Shown piece after piece: positions 16,673 to 26,119 of a DNA stretch of 60,856 nt. This stretch comes from Anaeromyxobacter soli (GTDB lineage Bacteria; Myxococcota; Myxococcia; Myxococcales; Anaeromyxobacteraceae), in NCBI RefSeq assembly GCF_022808855.1, contig NZ_JAKZLF010000032.1, positions 1 through 60,856 of the forward strand, written 5' to 3'. The first letter of the stretch is position 1. Every line of letters begins with the position of its first letter. The position numbers were made by a program, and so were the translations under genes. Below the pieces are notes generated by a model. The model searched no databases and was not told the DNA's origin. It saw only the letters and a program-made list of their open reading frames with translations.

Positions 16673-16712
16673 GCGCCCGCTGAGCGCGCGGGGACGCTCA
16701 GCGCGCGGGCGC
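16673..16712. terminator. Nested hairpin between convergent genes
   Basis: GCGCCCG (16673-16679) pairs with CGGGCGC (16706-16712), and CTGAGCG (16680-16686) pairs with CGCTCAG (16695-16701). This leaves an 8-base loop and a 4-base bulge. The structure starts directly after one stop codon and includes the stop codon of the opposing gene, as expected for a bidirectional terminator. Confidence 0.5.
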
Positions 16713-18431
16713 CTCCGGCGGGAGCGCGACGAACACGCCGAGCACGCCGATGAGGTTCCCGGCCTGGTCGCGCAGCGGCACCCGGCTCGCCAGGCAGTCG
16801 ATGTCCCCGCCCGACGCGTCGCGCAGGGTCTCGCGCGCGTCGAGCAGCGGCGCTCCGGCGTCCATGACGCCCCGGTCCCGCTCCAGGAGGCGCGCGCGCT
16901 GCTCGTCGCTCCAGCCGAGCTGCGCGTCGGTCTTCCCGACGATCGCCTCGGCGGAGGGGAGGCCGAACCGCTGCGCGAAGCGGTCGTTGCACCCGAGGTA
17001 AACGGAGCGCCGGTCCTTCCAGTAGATGGAGTGCGGGACGTTCGACAGGACGCTCTGGAGCAGCTCGCGCTGCTCGCGGACGTTGCGGAAGCTCGCCTCG
17101 ACCCGCTCGGCCATGTGATCGAACTCGGTGGCGAGCTGACCGATCTCGTCCTTCGAGCGCAGGCCGATGCGGCGCGACAGGTGCTTCTCGTCGTCCGCGA
17201 TGTCCCGGGACAGGCCGACCAGCGTGGCGAGGGGCCGCGTGAGGGTGGCGGCGAGGAAGCTCACCCCGGCCACCGCCAGGATCACCACCACGAGCGACGC
17301 CAGCATGATGCGCCGGACGAGGGCGCCGACCTGCGCCTCGGCGGCCGCGGTCTTCTCGGCGATGGCGACCTCGATGTCGTCCACGTACCGGCCCGTGCCG
17401 ATGATCCAGTCGAGCGGCCGGTAGCGCTTCACGAACGAGAGCTTCGGCGCCGCGGCGCCCGGGGTCCCCTCCGCCGTCGGCTTCGGCCAGGAGTACTCCA
17501 CGAAGCCCTCGCCGGTCTTCCAGGAGATGTCCCGGAACGCCGAGAACAGGTTCTGGGCGCGGCCGTTCACCGCGAGCTCGAACTCCTTCGCGTCCATCGT
17601 CCGGCCGTCGAGCTCGGGCCGGATCGGATGCATCACCATGCGCGGGACCGGCGTCTCGGCGGTGCTGATCCAGAAGTACTCCGAGCCGTAGCGGATCTTG
17701 CGGATGCCCGAGGTGATCTCGGCGAGCTTCTCCCGCACCGCCTCGTCCACGTAGATGCCGGTCCCCACCACCCAGCCCCACTCCTTGAACAGGCGGACAT
17801 AGGAGAACTTGGGCATGCGCGGCAGGAGCGCGTTCCCGTCCGGCTCGGGCCAGCTGTAGCGGATGAAGCCCGCCCCGCGCGCGGCGGTGAGCTCGACGGC
17901 GAGCTGGAACAGGTTACGGTCGTCGTCGCCCGCGCAGTCGAACTCGGGCGCGTCGAGGACCGTCCCCTCGAGCCTCGGGACGAGCGGGTGCATGAGCATC
18001 GTCGGGTAGGGCCGGCCGACGGTGTTGATCCACAGGTACCCCTTGCCGCCGTCGAACCGCATCGCGCGGAGCGTCTCGAGCGCGTCCGCCTGCGCGCGCG
18101 CGACCGACACCTCGCCCCGGCGCGCCCGCGCGAGGTGCTCGCGGAGGGTCGCGCCCGCGACGTCGAGGATCGCCTCGAGCCGCTGCCCGTACTTCTGCTC
18201 GAGGTAGCGCTCGTCCGCGGCCTCCCGGTACTGCGCGTCGATGAGCGCGTAGACGGTGTTCACCTTGTCGGTGAGGTCCTGCTTCACCTGCGCGGTCTTC
18301 TCGGCCCGGATGCGCGCGATGTCCTCCGCGGCCCGCGAGCGGATGCTCCCGACGGCGTAGCCCGCGAGGACACCCGCGGTGACCAGCACCGCGACGGAGA
18401 TGGCCAGCTGCAGCTTGAGCTTCAGGGTCAA
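16698..18431 (-). CDS. Double-Cache, HAMP and PAS receptor with no output domain
   Basis: This 577-residue protein has an N-terminal membrane anchor (residues 8-28), then two consecutive single-Cache domains. Each carries the family pattern of a YLWIN or YFWIS core, MLMHP or MVMHP, EGFVEYSWPKP-type strand and WVVGTGIYVDD-type end. A second membrane segment near residue 400 is followed by HAMP (RPLATLVGLSRD...) and a PAS domain (LLQSVLSNVPHSIYWKD...NDRFAQRFGL). The chain ends right after the PAS strand VLGVFVAL. There is no methyl-accepting, kinase, GGDEF or EAL domain, and no coding continuation before the next gene. It should sense small carboxylate-type ligands in the periplasm. The start is TTG at 18431 with GGAG upstream. 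Confidence 0.88.
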   Translation of the reverse strand: MTLKLKLQLAISVAVLVTAGVLAGYAVGSIRSRAAEDIARIRAEKTAQVKQDLTDKVNTVYALIDAQYREAADERYLEQKYGQRLEAILDVAGATLREHLARARRGEVSVARAQADALETLRAMRFDGGKGYLWINTVGRPYPTMLMHPLVPRLEGTVLDAPEFDCAGDDDRNLFQLAVELTAARGAGFIRYSWPEPDGNALLPRMPKFSYVRLFKEWGWVVGTGIYVDEAVREKLAEITSGIRKIRYGSEYFWISTAETPVPRMVMHPIRPELDGRTMDAKEFELAVNGRAQNLFSAFRDISWKTGEGFVEYSWPKPTAEGTPGAAAPKLSFVKRYRPLDWIIGTGRYVDDIEVAIAEKTAAAEAQVGALVRRIMLASLVVVILAVAGVSFLAATLTRPLATLVGLSRDIADDEKHLSRRIGLRSKDEIGQLATEFDHMAERVEASFRNVREQRELLQSVLSNVPHSIYWKDRRSVYLGCNDRFAQRFGLPSAEAIVGKTDAQLGWSDEQRARLLERDRGVMDAGAPLLDARETLRDASGGDIDCLASRVPLRDQAGNLIGVLGVFVALPPEAPAR

Positions 18432-18494
18432 GAGCGCTCCGGGACCGGCGGTGGCGGGATTCTGGCCGACCCGCGAAGGCGGATCAACGAGGGG

Positions 18495-18524
18495 TTGTGG
18501 AGGCGCGTCGGGGGCTGGGATAAT
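18495..18524 (+). promoter_or_regulatory. Sigma-70-like promoter for the 18635-21288 operon
   Basis: TTGTGG (18495-18500) and GATAAT (18519-18524) are separated by 18 bases and stand out in GC-rich sequence. They lie 110 bases upstream of the ATG at 18635, giving a leader of about 100 bases. This is the best housekeeping-type promoter seen in the window; it has not been tested. Confidence 0.5.
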
Positions 18525-18634
18525 CGCGGGCGCTCGACAGATCGTCGCAGGCCACGCACGCCACGAAGGACGGGGGCAGGCAGAGCTCGAAGGAATCGGG
18601 GAGCCGATTCGTTCACGGGCGCCGGGGACCGCCG

Positions 18635-20560
18635 ATGCTCGATCGCCTCCTCCACTTCGTGACGGGAAGCCCGGCGTTCCAGTTCTTGCGCTCGGTCACG
18701 CCGTTCGACTTCCTCCCGGACGCCGACCTCGAGCGCATCAGCGACGCGCTCTCCATCGAGTACCACCCGAGGGGGAGCACGCTCTTCGCCCAGGGGCAGT
18801 CGGCGGTGACCGACGTCTACGTCGTCATGAAGGGCTCGCTCGAGCTCCTCGACGACGCGGCCGCGCCCGGCTCCCAGGGGCGCGCCGCCGGCCTCGGCCA
18901 GACCTACGGCGGGGCGTGCGTCCTGACGAACGGCGGGATCGCCCTGTTCACGGTGCGTGCGGTGGAGGACACGTTCCTCTACGCGGTGCCGGGGGCGCTG
19001 TTCCTCGAGGCGTGCGCGAGGCACCGCGAGTTCCACGACTTCTTCGCCGAGAGCCTCGGGCCCCGCATGCTCGAGCGCGTGGGGGCGCGGCTGCGCCAGA
19101 AGTGGCTCCTCACCTCGCCCGATCCGGACTCCGTCGGCTTCAGCCGCACGGTCGGGGAGATCTGCGATCGGGAGGTGGCCTGGTGCTCGCGAGAGGAGTC
19201 GGTGCGGGAGGTCGCGCAGCGGATGGCCGTGCGGCGCTGCCACACGCTGCTCGTGCGCGACGCGGGCGGCGCGCTCGTGGGGCTCGTGAGCGAGCGGGAC
19301 CTCGTCACGCGGGCGCTGGCGAGCGGCCTCGACGCGGCGCGGCCCGTCTCGGAGGTCATGACCCCCGCCGGCGAGGCGATGGCGGCCGGGTTGCCGCTCG
19401 CCGCGGCGATGGAGGTGATGGTGCGCTCCGGCGTTCGCTCGCTGCCGGTCGCCGGAGAGGGTGGGGAGATCGTCGGGCTGCTCGCGGACGACGATCTGCT
19501 CGTCGCGCACGGGAGCTCTCCGCTCGAGTACCTGCGGGACATCGCGCAGACCCGGCTCCGCAAGGACCTCGCCGAGAAGCGGGCGCGCCTGCCCCGGCTG
19601 GTCCGCGCGCTCATGCTCGAGGGGGCGCGGGTGGACAGCCTCACCTGGCTCATCAGCGCCGTGTCCGACGCCACGGTGAGGCGCGTGCTCGACCTGGCGC
19701 TCGCCGAGATGGGCCCGCCCCCCGCGCCGTTCGTGTTCCTCGCCCTCGGCAGCGAGGGGCGGCGAGAGCAGACCCTCGTGACCGACCAGGACAACGCCCT
19801 GGTGTTCGCCGACGTCCCCGGGCGCGAGGCGGAGGCGGCGGAGTACTTCCCGCGGCTCGGCGAGCGCGTCTGCACCTGGCTGAAGGAGGTCGGGGTCGAG
19901 TACTGCGACGGGGAGGTGATGGCGAGCAACCGGGAGTGGTGCCAGCCGCTGTCCGTCTGGAAGGAGTACTTCCGCAAGTGGGTGAGGGTCCCGGAGCCGG
20001 AGGCGGTGCTCAACTCCAGCATCTTCTTCGACTTCCGGGAGGTGCACGGAGACCTCGCGCTCGCCGAGGAGCTCCGCGGCCACGTGACCCAGCTGCTCGC
20101 GCCAAGGCCCGGGATGTTCTTCAACCTCCTCGCGCAGGCGGTGGTGGACAAGGAGCTGCCCGTCGGCCTCTTCGGGCGGATCTCGGTGGAGACGCGCGGG
20201 AGCCGGGAGGACGTGTTCGACATCAAGCAGCCCATCGCGCGCATCTGCGAGCTGACGCGGCTGCAGGGCCTCTGGAACGGCATCGGCGCGACGAGCACGC
20301 TCGAGCGGCTGCGGAAGCTCTCGCAGCAGGGCGAGGTGGACGCGCGGGTCTGCCTCGACATGAAGCACGCGTACTCCTTCCTCATGCAGCTGCGGCTCGC
20401 CCGGCAGGTGGCGGCGCTCGGGAGCGGGGGCGTGCCGGCCGACAACCTCATCAGCACGCACGAGATCTCCACCCTCGAGCAGCGGTTCCTCGAGGAGACC
20501 TTCGGGCTCATCGGACGTGCCCAGGCGAGCGCGCGCAGGAAGTTCCTGCGCCAGGCGTGA
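18635..20560 (+). CDS. cNMP-binding, CBS and DUF294 nucleotidyltransferase protein
   Basis: This 641-residue cytoplasmic protein has three parts. Residues 15-130 form a cyclic-nucleotide-binding fold (HPRGSTLFAQGQSAVTDVYVV, shown in part). Residues 165-290 are a CBS pair (VREVAQRMAVRRCHTLLV, LVGLVSERDLVTRAL, GLLADDDLLVAHG). From about 300 on comes a DUF294-type nucleotidyltransferase with the GlnD-like motif GSEGRREQTLVTDQDNAL, whose DQD aspartates would bind metal, plus its helical C-terminal domain. Related proteins are thought to modify a partner under control of bound nucleotides, but no target is known. A DnaQ-like exonuclease follows after 11 bases, a widely conserved pairing. The ribosome binding site is weak. 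Confidence 0.92.
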   Translation: MLDRLLHFVTGSPAFQFLRSVTPFDFLPDADLERISDALSIEYHPRGSTLFAQGQSAVTDVYVVMKGSLELLDDAAAPGSQGRAAGLGQTYGGACVLTNGGIALFTVRAVEDTFLYAVPGALFLEACARHREFHDFFAESLGPRMLERVGARLRQKWLLTSPDPDSVGFSRTVGEICDREVAWCSREESVREVAQRMAVRRCHTLLVRDAGGALVGLVSERDLVTRALASGLDAARPVSEVMTPAGEAMAAGLPLAAAMEVMVRSGVRSLPVAGEGGEIVGLLADDDLLVAHGSSPLEYLRDIAQTRLRKDLAEKRARLPRLVRALMLEGARVDSLTWLISAVSDATVRRVLDLALAEMGPPPAPFVFLALGSEGRREQTLVTDQDNALVFADVPGREAEAAEYFPRLGERVCTWLKEVGVEYCDGEVMASNREWCQPLSVWKEYFRKWVRVPEPEAVLNSSIFFDFREVHGDLALAEELRGHVTQLLAPRPGMFFNLLAQAVVDKELPVGLFGRISVETRGSREDVFDIKQPIARICELTRLQGLWNGIGATSTLERLRKLSQQGEVDARVCLDMKHAYSFLMQLRLARQVAALGSGGVPADNLISTHEISTLEQRFLEETFGLIGRAQASARRKFLRQA

Positions 20561-20571
20561 AAGGGAGCGCA

Positions 20572-21288
20572 ATGAGCCGAACCACCGGGATCGCGGCGCT
20601 CCTCCGGCTCGTCCGGCGCAAGGCCACCGGCGCGGCCGCGGAGGTCCGCTACGCGCGGCGCAAGACGCTCGGCGCGGAGGAGTGGACGCAGCCGATCCGG
20701 ACGATGACGTTCACGGTGCTCGACTGCGAGATGACCGGGCTCGACCCCGCCAAGGACGAGATCCTCTCCATCGGCGCGGTGCGGATCCGCAACGGCCGGA
20801 TCGTGATGAGCGAGCGCTTCTACCAGGTGTTCAAGCCGACCGAGGCGGTCTCGCCGAAGGAGGTCATCCTCATCCACGGCCTCGGCCCCGACGAGGTCAG
20901 CCGCGGCATGCCGCTCCTCGACGCGCTCGACCGCCTGCTCGCCTTCATCGGCGACAGCGTCGTGATCGGCCACTTCACGGCGGTCGATCTCGGCTTCCTG
21001 AACGCGGCGCTCGCGTCGCGGAAGGAGCGATCGATCAAGAACCCCGCGCTCGACACGCGCCTCCTGTACGGCTGGTGGCGCCGGCGGACGTCGCCTGCGA
21101 GCCAGGCCTCGACCGACGCCGCCCTCGAGGACATCGTCATCGAGATGGGGCTGCCGCGCTACCCGGCGCACCACGCCTTCTACGACGCGCTCACCACCGG
21201 CATGGTGTTCCTGAAGCTGCTGGGCGACTTCGAGGCCTCGGGCGCCGTTCAGTTCCGGACGCTGTACCGGGAGGCGGGGGTGTACTGA
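20572..21288 (+). CDS. DnaQ-like 3'-5' exonuclease
   Basis: This 238-residue member of the DEDD exonuclease superfamily is like the polymerase III epsilon subunit. Motif I is LDCEMTGLDP (D and E), motif II lies around VVIGHFTAVDLGFLN, and motif III is HHAFYDALTTG, so it is of the DEDDh type. The first 45 residues are an Arg/Ala-rich lead-in. It starts 11 bases after the cNMP-CBS-nucleotidyltransferase gene, with GGGAG upstream, and must be in its operon. Proteins with this pairing may degrade or edit a nucleic acid or nucleotide product; they are distinct from the replicative proofreading subunit. It converges with ureG. Confidence 0.9.
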   Translation: MSRTTGIAALLRLVRRKATGAAAEVRYARRKTLGAEEWTQPIRTMTFTVLDCEMTGLDPAKDEILSIGAVRIRNGRIVMSERFYQVFKPTEAVSPKEVILIHGLGPDEVSRGMPLLDALDRLLAFIGDSVVIGHFTAVDLGFLNAALASRKERSIKNPALDTRLLYGWWRRRTSPASQASTDAALEDIVIEMGLPRYPAHHAFYDALTTGMVFLKLLGDFEASGAVQFRTLYREAGVY

Positions 21289-21321
21289 CGCGCGAGCGGG
21301 GAAGGATCACGTGCTGGCGAG

Positions 21322-21339
21322 CAGGGGCGGGGCGCAGCC
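21322..21339 (-). terminator. GC-rich element after ureG
   Basis: CAGGGGCGGGGCGCAGCC carries the core shared with 85-102 and 10107-10125. It lies about 20 bases past the ureG stop codon, between convergent genes. The stem is imperfect here. A terminator role is inferred from the repeated position. Confidence 0.35.
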
Positions 21340-21358
21340 AGCGCGGTCCCCGGCGAGA

Positions 21359-22063
21359 TCATCCGCCGATCGCGTGCCGGTATGCGTGGAGGACGTGCTC
21401 GGCGATCTCCGCGACGCCCACGCCCCGGGTGACCTGCGCGAAGACCACCGGGCCGTCGCCGCGCATCCGCGCGGCGTCGCGGGCCATGAGGCCGAGGTCG
21501 GCGCCGACCGCCTCGGCGAGATCCGTCTTGTTCACCACGAGGAGATCGGCCTGCGTGATGCCGGGGCCGCCCTTGCGCGGCACCTTGTCCCCGCCCGCGA
21601 CGTCGATGACGTAGATGGTGTAGTCGGCGAGCTCGCGGCTGAAGTGCGCGGCGAGGTTGTCGCCCCCCGACTCGCAGAACAGGATCTCGGGGTCGTGCGC
21701 CAGGGTGAGCTCCTCGAGCGCGAGCAGGTTCGCGGTCACGTCCTCGCGGATGGCCGCGTGCGGGCACCCTCCGGTCTCGACGGCGCGGATGCGCTCGGCG
21801 GGCAGCGCCTGGTTCCGGACCAGGAACTCGGCGTCCTCGCGGGTGAAGATGTCGTTCGTCACGACCGCGAGGGAGCGTGAGTGGCGCAGCGCGCGGCAGA
21901 GCGCGAGGACGAGCGCGGTCTTCCCGCTCCCGACCGGACCTCCCACTCCGACCGTGAAGGCGCGCCGCCGGAGGTCGCCGCGCGCGTGAGGGGCGCCGCG
22001 GTCCCGGAACGAGCCGGGCCCGGGGGCGTGATCGTGACCGGAGTGGAGCGAGAGCGCGTTCAT
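21359..22063 (-). CDS. ureG: Urease accessory GTPase UreG
   Basis: This 234-residue protein is a SIMIBI GTPase that delivers nickel to urease. The P-loop is [11 protein letters not shown]; the nickel-binding CPH motif is in [13 protein letters not shown]; the GTPase motifs ESGGDNL and VNKTDLA are present. A short His-containing tail precedes the GTPase domain ([10 protein letters not shown]), which could hold nickel in the absence of UreE. It starts 2 bases after ureF and is the last gene of the ureD-ureAB-ureC-ureF-ureG operon. A GC-rich element and a convergent exonuclease gene follow. Confidence 0.96.
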
Positions 22064-22065
22064 GG

Positions 22066-22721
22066 TCAGCTCTGGAAGAGCCTCGAGTAGAGGCGGTCCT
22101 GGTGGGACTGCAGGAGCTCGAGGAGCGGCGAGGCCGCCGCGGCCTCCTCGGGTGGCCGACCGGCCGTCGCGGCGAGGACCGCGTCCGCGACCGCGCCGGC
22201 GCGGACGAGGGCGGCCTGGGCCTCGAGCGGACCGCAGAGGCCGAGCCGCACGCCGGCGGAGACGATCCCCCGCGCCGCGAGGAACAGGTGCAGCCGCGCG
22301 GCCTCCTCCTCGGACGCGCCGAGGCGGCCGAGGACCACCCCCGACACCGGGGCGAGGTGCCCCGCGAGGCCGGCGTGCCGCACCTCCTCCTCGAGCTCCC
22401 GCGCGGCGGGCCCGAGGGAGACCGCGGCCCGGAGCAGCGCACGCCCCTGCGCGCGGCTCGCGCGGTTGGCGACGTGCCCGGGAATGGCGGCGTCGCAGCG
22501 GGCGTCGAGCTCGGCGAGCCGCTCCGGCGCGCGCAGCGCCGCGACGACGAAGGGGACCGCGAGCGAGCCCGCCTGCCAGAGCGACTCGACCACGAAGGCG
22601 TCGAGCCCCGCGACGCCGGCGCAGCGCCCGAGCTGCACGGCCGCCTCGAGCCCGCCGGAGTGGGCGAAGCCGCCGGTGGGGAACGCCGAGTCGGCGAGCT
22701 GCCAGGAGAGCCAGGGGGTCA

Positions 22722-22722
<1 letters not shown>
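22066..22722 (-). CDS. ureF: Urease accessory protein UreF
   Basis: This 218-residue all-helical protein joins UreD and UreG in the urease activation complex and gates GTP hydrolysis. The signature is at the N-terminus: [21 protein letters not shown], given in part as [12 protein letters not shown]. The helical core ends in the conserved [19 protein letters not shown] region. The ATG at 22722 shares one base with the ureC stop codon (TGATG), so translation is coupled. Length and start agree with the family. It sits between ureC and ureG in the usual order. Confidence 0.95.
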
Positions 22723-24437
<1,715 letters not shown>

Positions 24438-24438
24438 C

Positions 24439-25212
24439 TCAGCGCTCCTCCGCGTGGGCGAAGCCGCGCCGGCGGGCCTCCGCCACGACGCGCTCCCGGC
24501 CCTCCTCCGTGACCGGCCCCGGCGCGAGGGCGTTGCCGCCGCGGACCACGCGGCGCCCCCCGATCTCCACGAGCGCGACCGTGCGCGTCTCGCCGGGCTC
24601 GAAGCGGACCGCCATCCCGGCGGGCACGTCGAGCCGGCGGCCGTACGCGCGCGCCCGGTCGAAGCGCAGGAGCGGGTTCACCTCGGCGAAGTGGTAGTGG
24701 CTCCCCACCTGCACCGGGCGGTCGGCGAGGTTCGTCACGGCGAGCTGGATCGCCTCGCGTCCCTCGTTCAGCACCACCTCGCCGGGCGCCGGCAGCACCT
24801 CGCCCGGGCTCGCCTCCTCCGGTCCGCCGGGAGCTTCCTCCGCGAAGGCCGACAGGGGCGGGACCGGGAGGAAGGATCCGTAGAGCGCCAGCGCGAGGTC
24901 GCCGTCCTCCGCCGCGATGGGGTGGTGGACCGTGACGAGCTTCGTGCCGTCGGGGAACGTCCCCTCCACCTGCACCTCCGCGACGAGCTCGGGCACGCCC
25001 GGCAGCACCTGCCGCCGCCCGAGCATCCGCCGGCCGAGCGCCATCAGCTCGGCGACGCGCCGCCCGTCGCGCGCGAGCTCGAGGAGCTGGGTGGCGACGA
25101 GCGCGACCGCCTCGGGGTGGTTGAGGCGCAGGCCTCGCGCGAGCCGTTTCTGCGCGAGGACGCCGGCCTGGTGGAGCGTGAGCTTGTCGATCTCTCGTGG
25201 GGTCAGGTGCAT
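24439..25212 (-). CDS. ureAB: Fused urease gamma and beta subunit UreAB
   Basis: This 257-residue protein joins the two small urease subunits that most bacteria encode separately. Residues 1-100 are gamma ([34 protein letters not shown]). Residues 130-240 are beta ([27 protein letters not shown], shown in part as [15 protein letters not shown], and the [16 protein letters not shown] strand). An acidic Pro/Glu/Ala linker of about 30 residues joins them. Similar fusions are known in Helicobacter and some other bacteria. The ATG at 25212 has GGAGGCACG upstream and lies 13 bases after the ureD stop codon. The fusion would fix the 1:1 ratio of the two chains. Confidence 0.95.
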
Positions 25213-25225
25213 CGTGCCTCCGGGT

Positions 25226-26119
25226 TCACGGAATGTGCGTAAACGGATCCACGCCGGTGACGGCCGCGACGAATGCGAGGCGCTCGCGCACGAACGCGAG
25301 CCCGTCCTCGATGCTCCGGCTCGCGATGCGCACGAGGACGCCGTCGCCGAGCGGGCTCGCCGCCGCGAGGACGGGCGAGTCCGGGGTGGCCGGCGACGAC
25401 GCGAGCCGCTCCTGGAGCGCGCGGGCGTGGCGCGCGCTCGCCGGTCCGAGCGCGACCACCGTCGCGAGGAAGTCGACGCCGGAGAGCCGCTCGCCGAGGG
25501 GAGGACCTTCGCCGGGCACGAGGCGGAGCCCGTCCGCCAGGATCGTCCGGCCGCCCATCACGACCTCGACGCGCGAGCGGTACTCGTCGAAGGCCCAGCG
25601 CTCGCCGCGAGCGACGCGGCCCGCGACCAGGGCGTCGAGCCAGAGAAGGCTCGCGCCGGGCGCGAGCTCGAGCCGCTGCTCCTGGCGGTAGCGCGCGCTC
25701 GCGAAGCAGCTCACCGGCTGCGGCAGGACCGCGAGGACGGCGCCCGGGCCGACGCGCGCCCCGAGCCGCTGCGTCGCGATCGCCCCGCGCGAGCGGTAGA
25801 TCTTGGTCCCCGCCTGCGTGGAGAGGAGCGCGGTAGAGTCCCCTCCGACCTCGACCTCGAGCGACACCTCGTCCCCCGCGAGGAGCCCGCCGCCATGGCT
25901 CGCGGAGATGATCCAGGCGCAGCGCCCCCGCGGAGAGGGCGAGAGGAGCTGGAGAGGGCTCGACGCCATGCACGCGACGATGGCGCTCGCGCCGCCCACG
26001 CGCGCCGTCGCGACCCGTCCCGCGCCGGCGCGGAGCCCGTGTTCCGGGCGCGGCTGCCCGATGGACGTGCAGCGTGCCTCGGGGAGATCGAGGATCGGCT
26101 CGGGATCCAGGCAACGCAT
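25226..26119 (-). CDS. ureD: Urease accessory protein UreD (UreH)
   Basis: This 297-residue protein is the scaffold that binds apo-urease and recruits UreF and UreG. Family features are [27 protein letters not shown] and the later [23 protein letters not shown] strand pair. The first 35 residues (with [14 protein letters not shown]) are not typical and have no good ribosome binding site, so the true start may lie downstream, for instance at a GTG. It is the first gene of the operon; UreD upstream of the structural genes is a common order. No nickel transporter or NikR gene lies next to it. Confidence 0.9.

Follow-up and report, generated by a model that had tools for sequence, protein, structure and literature searches.

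Described counterparts of the locus analysed here are known from Pseudomonas. In P. putida, the transferase PP_0354 and the exonuclease PP_0353 form a known pair that is a target of MxtR/ErdR (CrbS/R). Deletion of PP_0353 slows growth on pyruvate, as does deletion of actP-I, and the PP_0353 mutant has no growth phenotype on acetate; the PP_0354 mutant has none on succinate or acetate (PMC9927547). The P. aeruginosa cluster PA3232-PA3235 rises on propionate (PMC9765439), and nucleotidylation has previously been proposed for the Pseudomonas transferase (PMC5715377). Given these studies, the description of the locus in a first-pass annotation as the best candidate for an uncharacterised system is too strong. 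The same annotation stated that the substrate is undescribed, in keeping with the open-access literature, where no paper found reports a substrate, activity or interaction for the transferase-exonuclease pair.

The window, which is the whole stretch of 60,856 nucleotides of Anaeromyxobacter soli DNA that was analysed (contig NZ_JAKZLF010000032.1), holds such a pair together with a divergent receptor gene. Their features and flanks are:

16698-18431, minus strand: membrane receptor gene, 577 aa, divergent from the pair; no output domain (Pfam)
16731-17048, minus strand: receptor PAS domain (Pfam)
17097-17258, minus strand: receptor HAMP domain (Pfam)
17370-18338, minus strand: receptor double Cache domain (Pfam)
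18432-18634, no strand: intergenic region shared by receptor and transferase, with a weak promoter candidate
18635-20560, plus strand: nucleotidyltransferase gene, 641 aa; Pfam order cyclic-nucleotide-binding-like (CNBD-like), CBS pair, DUF294, DUF294_C
18761-19024, plus strand: cyclic-nucleotide-binding-like domain, aa 43-130 (PF00027), without the phosphate-binding cassette
19151-19504, plus strand: CBS pair, aa 173-290 (Pfam); AMP-bound CBS structures are among its structural matches
19586-20002, plus strand: DUF294 nucleotidyltransferase domain, aa 318-456 (PF03445, E 2e-50, 170.5 bits)
19748-19795, plus strand: transferase active-site motif, aa 372-387, within DUF294
20114-20545, plus strand: DUF294_C helical domain, aa 494-637 (PF10335, E 1e-34, 120 bits)
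20572-21288, plus strand: DEDDh exonuclease gene, 238 aa; RNase_T core at 20716-21207
21359-26119, minus strand: urease gene cluster, converging with the exonuclease gene

Domains and active sites of the two enzymes

Coordinates, Pfam matches and catalytic motifs all agree with the first-pass placement of a transferase gene followed, after a gap of exactly 11 bases (20561-20571), by an exonuclease gene. The starts of both genes are backed by conservation to residue 1 across four genomes. In the transferase, PF03445 is followed by PF10335, both above cut-off, which identifies it as a DUF294/DUF294_C protein. Its active site was compared in an alignment of 87 copies, comprising relatives from 80 loci and the copies in the window's genome; 70 of these are of the CNBD type and 17 are not. 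The GSEGRREQT..TDQDN motif is intact in the window transferase, and the general form GSxxRxEQ..[TS]DQDN is found in all 87 copies, with rare exceptions at Q379 and N387. Residues G372, S373, R376, E378, D384, Q385 and D386 are invariant across the sample, and D466 is likewise invariant in the alignment.

The transferase had been described as cNMP/CBS-regulated, a description of which the cyclic-nucleotide half is not supported. The PF00027 match scores 27.5 bits, exactly at the Pfam cut-off of 27.5, and the domain has Q89, A103 and L104 where the phosphate-binding cassette needs Glu, then Arg-Ser/Thr-Ala/Thr. The canonical cassette occurs in two of the 70 CNBD-type copies and is missing from the other 68, the window copy included. 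Because the domain lacks this cassette, control of the transferase by cAMP, which had been offered as an input, is unlikely. The adenosine (ribose)-binding Asp, on the other hand, is present in both CBS motifs of the window transferase (D222 and D287), and Asp occupies these positions in 82 and 65 of the 87 copies, respectively.

The predicted fold of the transferase bears on the nature of its target. In an AlphaFold model (pLDDT 87, pTM 0.80), the top structural match is the N-domain of GlnE (1v4a; Z 29.3, 327 aligned residues); the GlnE C-domain (3k7d) matches with Z 27.3 and the Rab AMPylase DrrA with Z 25.2. Pfam finds a single DUF294 domain and neither of the GlnD features HD and ACT, and the earlier term GlnD-like gives way to a fold predicted to be nearer to GlnE. 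Since both halves of GlnE, as well as DrrA, add AMP to or remove it from proteins, a protein target is favoured but unproven. We propose from this model that the window transferase is a single-unit relative of GlnE, with DUF294_C as a putative GlnE-like, substrate-binding part.

To compare the transferase with HEPN/MNT toxin-antitoxin systems, the C-terminal part was searched for the HEPN RNase motif with its conserved histidine, which was not found in the window transferase. Column 524 is the sole C-terminal column with His in over half of the copies, and the window transferase has Arg there. DUF294_C is listed as not conserving the HEPN motif (PMC3710099).

The exonuclease matches PF00929 (RNase_T) with 74.5 bits (E 2e-20) and keeps the five catalytic residues D51, E53, D139, H200 and D205. 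Its sequence relatives with structures are the PolC and DnaQ exonucleases; a single-sequence fold prediction reached a pLDDT of 36 and was discarded. Alphaproteobacterial exonucleases, which lie in acetate/symporter operons, carry an N-terminal extension with two transmembrane (TM) segments (L149 7664-9640; L151 7385-9070), and the HAMP- and PAS-like stretches in this extension were recognised by eye only.

The clear sigma-70-like promoter that had been placed ahead of the module was not recovered in a scan of 18300-21500. The best candidate found by eye, TTGTGG (18495-18500) and GATAAT (18519-18524) with an 18-base spacer, is weak; in a four-genome alignment, two close relatives share it, whereas a 64%-identical one lacks it. 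Matches to the sigma-54 promoter pattern are fewer in the window than expected by chance.

Pairing of transferase and exonuclease

Adjacency of the two genes is common and phylogenetically broad. The exonuclease lies directly downstream, on the same strand, in 45 of the 70 CNBD-type transferases, and this arrangement extends over eight named phyla (Myxococcota, Acidobacteriota, Nitrospirota, Chloroflexota, Deinococcota, Bacteroidota, Thermodesulfobacteriota and Pseudomonadota). The exonuclease was also searched genome-wide, regardless of the transferase, in the genome of the window and those of 40 relatives, 41 in all. This search gave 37 clear copies, all within the window's family, of which 34 lie no more than 5 kb from a separately searched transferase, always on the same strand, well above what chance would give; 24 of these 34 are within 250 bases downstream of it. 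The three unpaired copies come from draft assemblies, on contigs where no transferase was found. In the window's genome there are only two RNase_T matches, both near DUF294 genes. On the basis of these two matches and the 34 paired copies, the exonuclease is a dedicated partner of the transferase in the window's family. The counts and the eight phyla also bear out the first-pass statement that the pair is widespread and run counter to a refuting condition named there, a lack of co-conservation of the two genes across phyla.

Adjacency to the exonuclease is absent from all 17 non-CNBD transferases, receptor-fused ones included. This difference (45/70 versus 0/17) is not significant after correction for kinship, and no claim is placed on a correlation between the CNBD layout and the exonuclease because independent pairs on the tree give no support beyond kinship. 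Exonuclease adjacency needs eight changes on the transferase tree, which groups the window transferase with receptor-fused and Desulfobacterales transferases; within that group, only the window copy and its closest relative have a directly downstream exonuclease. Two more DUF294 copies in the same genome (L009 6361-10187; L008 5356-10047) have no exonuclease nearby. These two copies and the receptor-fused transferases indicate that a transferase need not always have the exonuclease close by. One of the two copies follows DUF485 and an acetate-type symporter, and the other a symporter-histidine kinase fusion.

Variations on the pair were also observed. One relative has three tandem transferase copies beside a single exonuclease (L139 7530-12263). 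On Vibrio plasmids (L147, L150) and a Hymenobacter plasmid (L148), the pair lies beside pectin-related kdgR/kduD genes or GH43 enzymes; in the Hymenobacter plasmid the order is reversed, with the exonuclease first and overlapping the transferase. Viral contigs yielded no relatives of either gene.

The receptor gene and the genomic context

The first-pass annotation missed both the receptor gene at 16698-18431 and the acetate/Na+ symporters and acetyl-CoA synthetase that surround related pairs elsewhere. In the receptor, TM segments lie near aa 11-29 and near aa 375-393. Receptor, transferase and exonuclease of the window type occur in exactly the same four of 24 family genomes, a raw count that ignores kinship, and the trio is conserved together in four genomes although the outer flanks differ. 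Elsewhere, an sCache-type domain is in frame with a CBS-DUF294 transferase at no fewer than 15 loci by similarity, six of them checked with Pfam. Phyla with such receptor-transferase fusions include Elusimicrobiota, Bacteroidota, Spirochaetota and Aminicenantota, and the fusions are the best reason for thinking that the window receptor signals to the transferase. Together with the TM-bearing alphaproteobacterial exonucleases, the fused transferases indicate that either partner is membrane-anchored in some lineage.

The best solved relative of the receptor is 4k08, an Anaeromyxobacter sensor domain (Adeh_3718) with acetate bound. The acetate is contacted by Tyr94, Trp96, His107, Tyr147, Trp149 and Lys160 and possibly came from the crystallisation buffer (PMC3831638). 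Each half of the window receptor retains all six contact residues, and the fused forms generally share the motif. By its sequence, the window receptor is probably of the carboxylate (sCache_2/dCache_2) type, with a small carboxylate as its presumed ligand.

The neighbours of related transferases point in the same metabolic direction. Within 4.5 kb, 62 of the 87 transferases have a transporter (sodium:solute or BCCT), an acetyl-CoA synthetase or a DUF485/DUF4212 gene; in this count, the labels Acs, BCCT, DUF485 and DUF4212 denote sequence clusters recognised by eye, and the sodium:solute symporters (SSS) were checked with Pfam. Annotated plasmid records agree with the symporter and Acs neighbours. 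For example, a Paracoccus plasmid is annotated in the order acs, DUF4212, symporter (SSS), DUF294, (small protein, response regulator), exonuclease, and the order in Rhizobium is similar. The window's own module is flanked by the urease cluster and a GH15 gene, and no solute symporter was found near it. Among the four genomes with the trio, only the most distant has a DUF4212-symporter pair beside it.

In some relatives, a 142-aa protein with no Pfam match lies beside DUF294/exonuclease/symporter clusters (L141 8730-9155; L139 5655-6083; L100 2514-2939). It is a possible substrate or adaptor; as a universal substrate it is ruled out, being missing from the window's genome.

A possible carboxylate-controlled switch and its alternatives

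The reading that we prefer, to which we give somewhat less than an even chance, is that the module is a carboxylate-controlled protein-nucleotidylation switch for small organic acids, with the exonuclease as its probable eraser. What suggests it at the level of sequence is the presence of all three genes, together with active sites that are intact, a pairing that is almost exclusive, co-inheritance of the receptor, fusions in other phyla, a predicted GlnE/DrrA-like fold and the symporter and acetyl-CoA synthetase context elsewhere. The Cache-HAMP-PAS receptor would sense extracellular acetate- or pyruvate-like carboxylates and, through a presumed contact, pass its state to the cytoplasmic transferase, which may also read adenine nucleotides via its CBS pair. 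The transferase would modify a protein with a nucleotide, most likely AMP, and the likeliest target would be part of the machinery that takes up or activates monocarboxylates, for instance a Na+/solute symporter or its small DUF485/DUF4212 partner. The DEDDh exonuclease would then reset the switch, cleaving the protein-O-P bond with release of 5'-NMP. Speaking against this reading are the transferases that have no exonuclease nearby, the P. putida mutants that grow normally on acetate (PMC9927547) and the failure to find a solute symporter near the window's module.

The chemistry of the last step has some precedent. The bond between tyrosine and AMP is a phosphodiester, and DEDDh enzymes act on ends that have a free 3'-OH, from which they free 5'-NMP. 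To our knowledge, no DEDDh enzyme acts on a protein-nucleotide bond, and the role of the exonuclease as eraser is the most tentative part of the reading. Snake venom phosphodiesterase, a 3'-exonuclease-type enzyme, strips AMP from the tyrosine of adenylylated GlnK (PMC3612183). The first-pass idea that nucleotides are added and then removed is plausible, with the active sites of transferase and exonuclease both intact. The phenotype seen only for the exonuclease in P. putida would fit an eraser and a writer if permanent modification does harm.

A broader version of the preferred reading, which we regard as doubtful, is that receptor-controlled reversible nucleotidylation governs the uptake of acetate-like acids in many phyla, with the DEDDh exonuclease as a new class of de-AMPylase. 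The receptor link, drawn from co-inheritance in the family and from fusion elsewhere, offers a testable signal, a place (the membrane) and a class of targets for a pair found in many phyla. If the exonuclease does reverse the modification, erasing protein AMPylation would become a further task of textbook nucleases, and a post-translational layer would be added to the control of carboxylate uptake, much as GlnE/GlnD provide in nitrogen metabolism.

Among the alternatives, the one that survives best makes the exonuclease an RNase that trims selected carbon-metabolism mRNAs or small RNAs, with the transferase regulating it or extending these RNAs with 3' nucleotides. The usual substrates of DEDDh nucleases are the 3' ends of nucleic acids, the structurally known relatives of the exonuclease are those of PolC and DnaQ, and mRNA decay is the subject of speculation by the authors of the P. 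putida study (PMC9927547). However, the transferase is predicted to fold like the protein-AMPylating GlnE and DrrA, an exonuclease that is almost never apart from the transferase in the family would be an odd general RNase, and the alphaproteobacterial form is membrane-anchored. We consider this alternative unlikely, though deserving of weight.

A two-protein switch, in which either the exonuclease or the receptor is the target of the transferase and exonuclease activity is the output, would suit the strict pairing and same-strand order, and the P. putida phenotype does belong to the exonuclease gene (PMC9927547). Such a switch is quite improbable, however, given that the exonuclease is missing next to many transferases, among them the sampled receptor-fused ones, and that none of the 84 loci analysed has transferase and exonuclease fused in one frame. 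It is very improbable that a small nucleotide messenger is produced by the transferase and degraded by the exonuclease. In favour of this idea, messenger synthases are found among polymerase-beta-type transferases, and defence systems have a DEDDh effector family, to which the exonuclease has a weak PADLOC match (E 0.003). Against it, the catalytic part has protein AMPylases as its listed structural matches, and the sole PADLOC match of the transferase (E 0.004) is to its CNBD part. A defence-system reading was rejected, as PADLOC returned nothing beyond a general DEDDh match and some weak ones. A role in nitrogen metabolism in the window's genome is scarcely credible: the module faces the minus-strand urease genes at 21359-26119, and some Bacillales have DUF294 and dnaQ genes within the amtB operon (PMC3412718), but urease genes were not found beside the trio in the other three genomes that carry it, and the receptor appears to be of the carboxylate type.

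The preferred switch can be set against known systems. Like GlnE, the glutamine synthetase adenylyltransferase, the window transferase combines a catalytic and a helical domain in its predicted fold and has the Gly-Ser and double-Asp active-site motif. In contrast to GlnE, it has one catalytic unit instead of two and carries CBS and CNBD-like sensors, and the module includes a separate exonuclease where GlnE has a second, deadenylylating half. The predicted catalytic fold is shared with the Legionella Rab AMPylase DrrA, which differs in being an injected effector that acts on host Rab proteins and has no CBS domains, receptor or exonuclease partner.

The Pseudomonas loci PP_0354/PP_0353, PA3233/PA3232 and P. 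fluorescens Pflu5625 have the same arrangement of a CBS-type transferase followed by an exonuclease; the sampled Pseudomonas transferases share ~30% identity with that of the window. The Pseudomonas pair is linked to the use of acetate, propionate and pyruvate and adjoins actP in P. aeruginosa (PMC9927547, PMC9765439, PMC5715377), whereas no symporter was found next to the window pair; conversely, no dedicated Cache receptor gene is reported for Pseudomonas. The Cache domain of the window receptor shares six acetate-contact residues, in each half, with the Adeh_3718 sensor (4k08), which belongs to a chemotaxis receptor, whereas the window receptor has no output domain. The exonuclease, finally, has the RNase_T match and DEDDh residues of the DnaQ/PolC type but, unlike those enzymes, is nearly always found beside a DUF294 transferase in the window's bacterial family.
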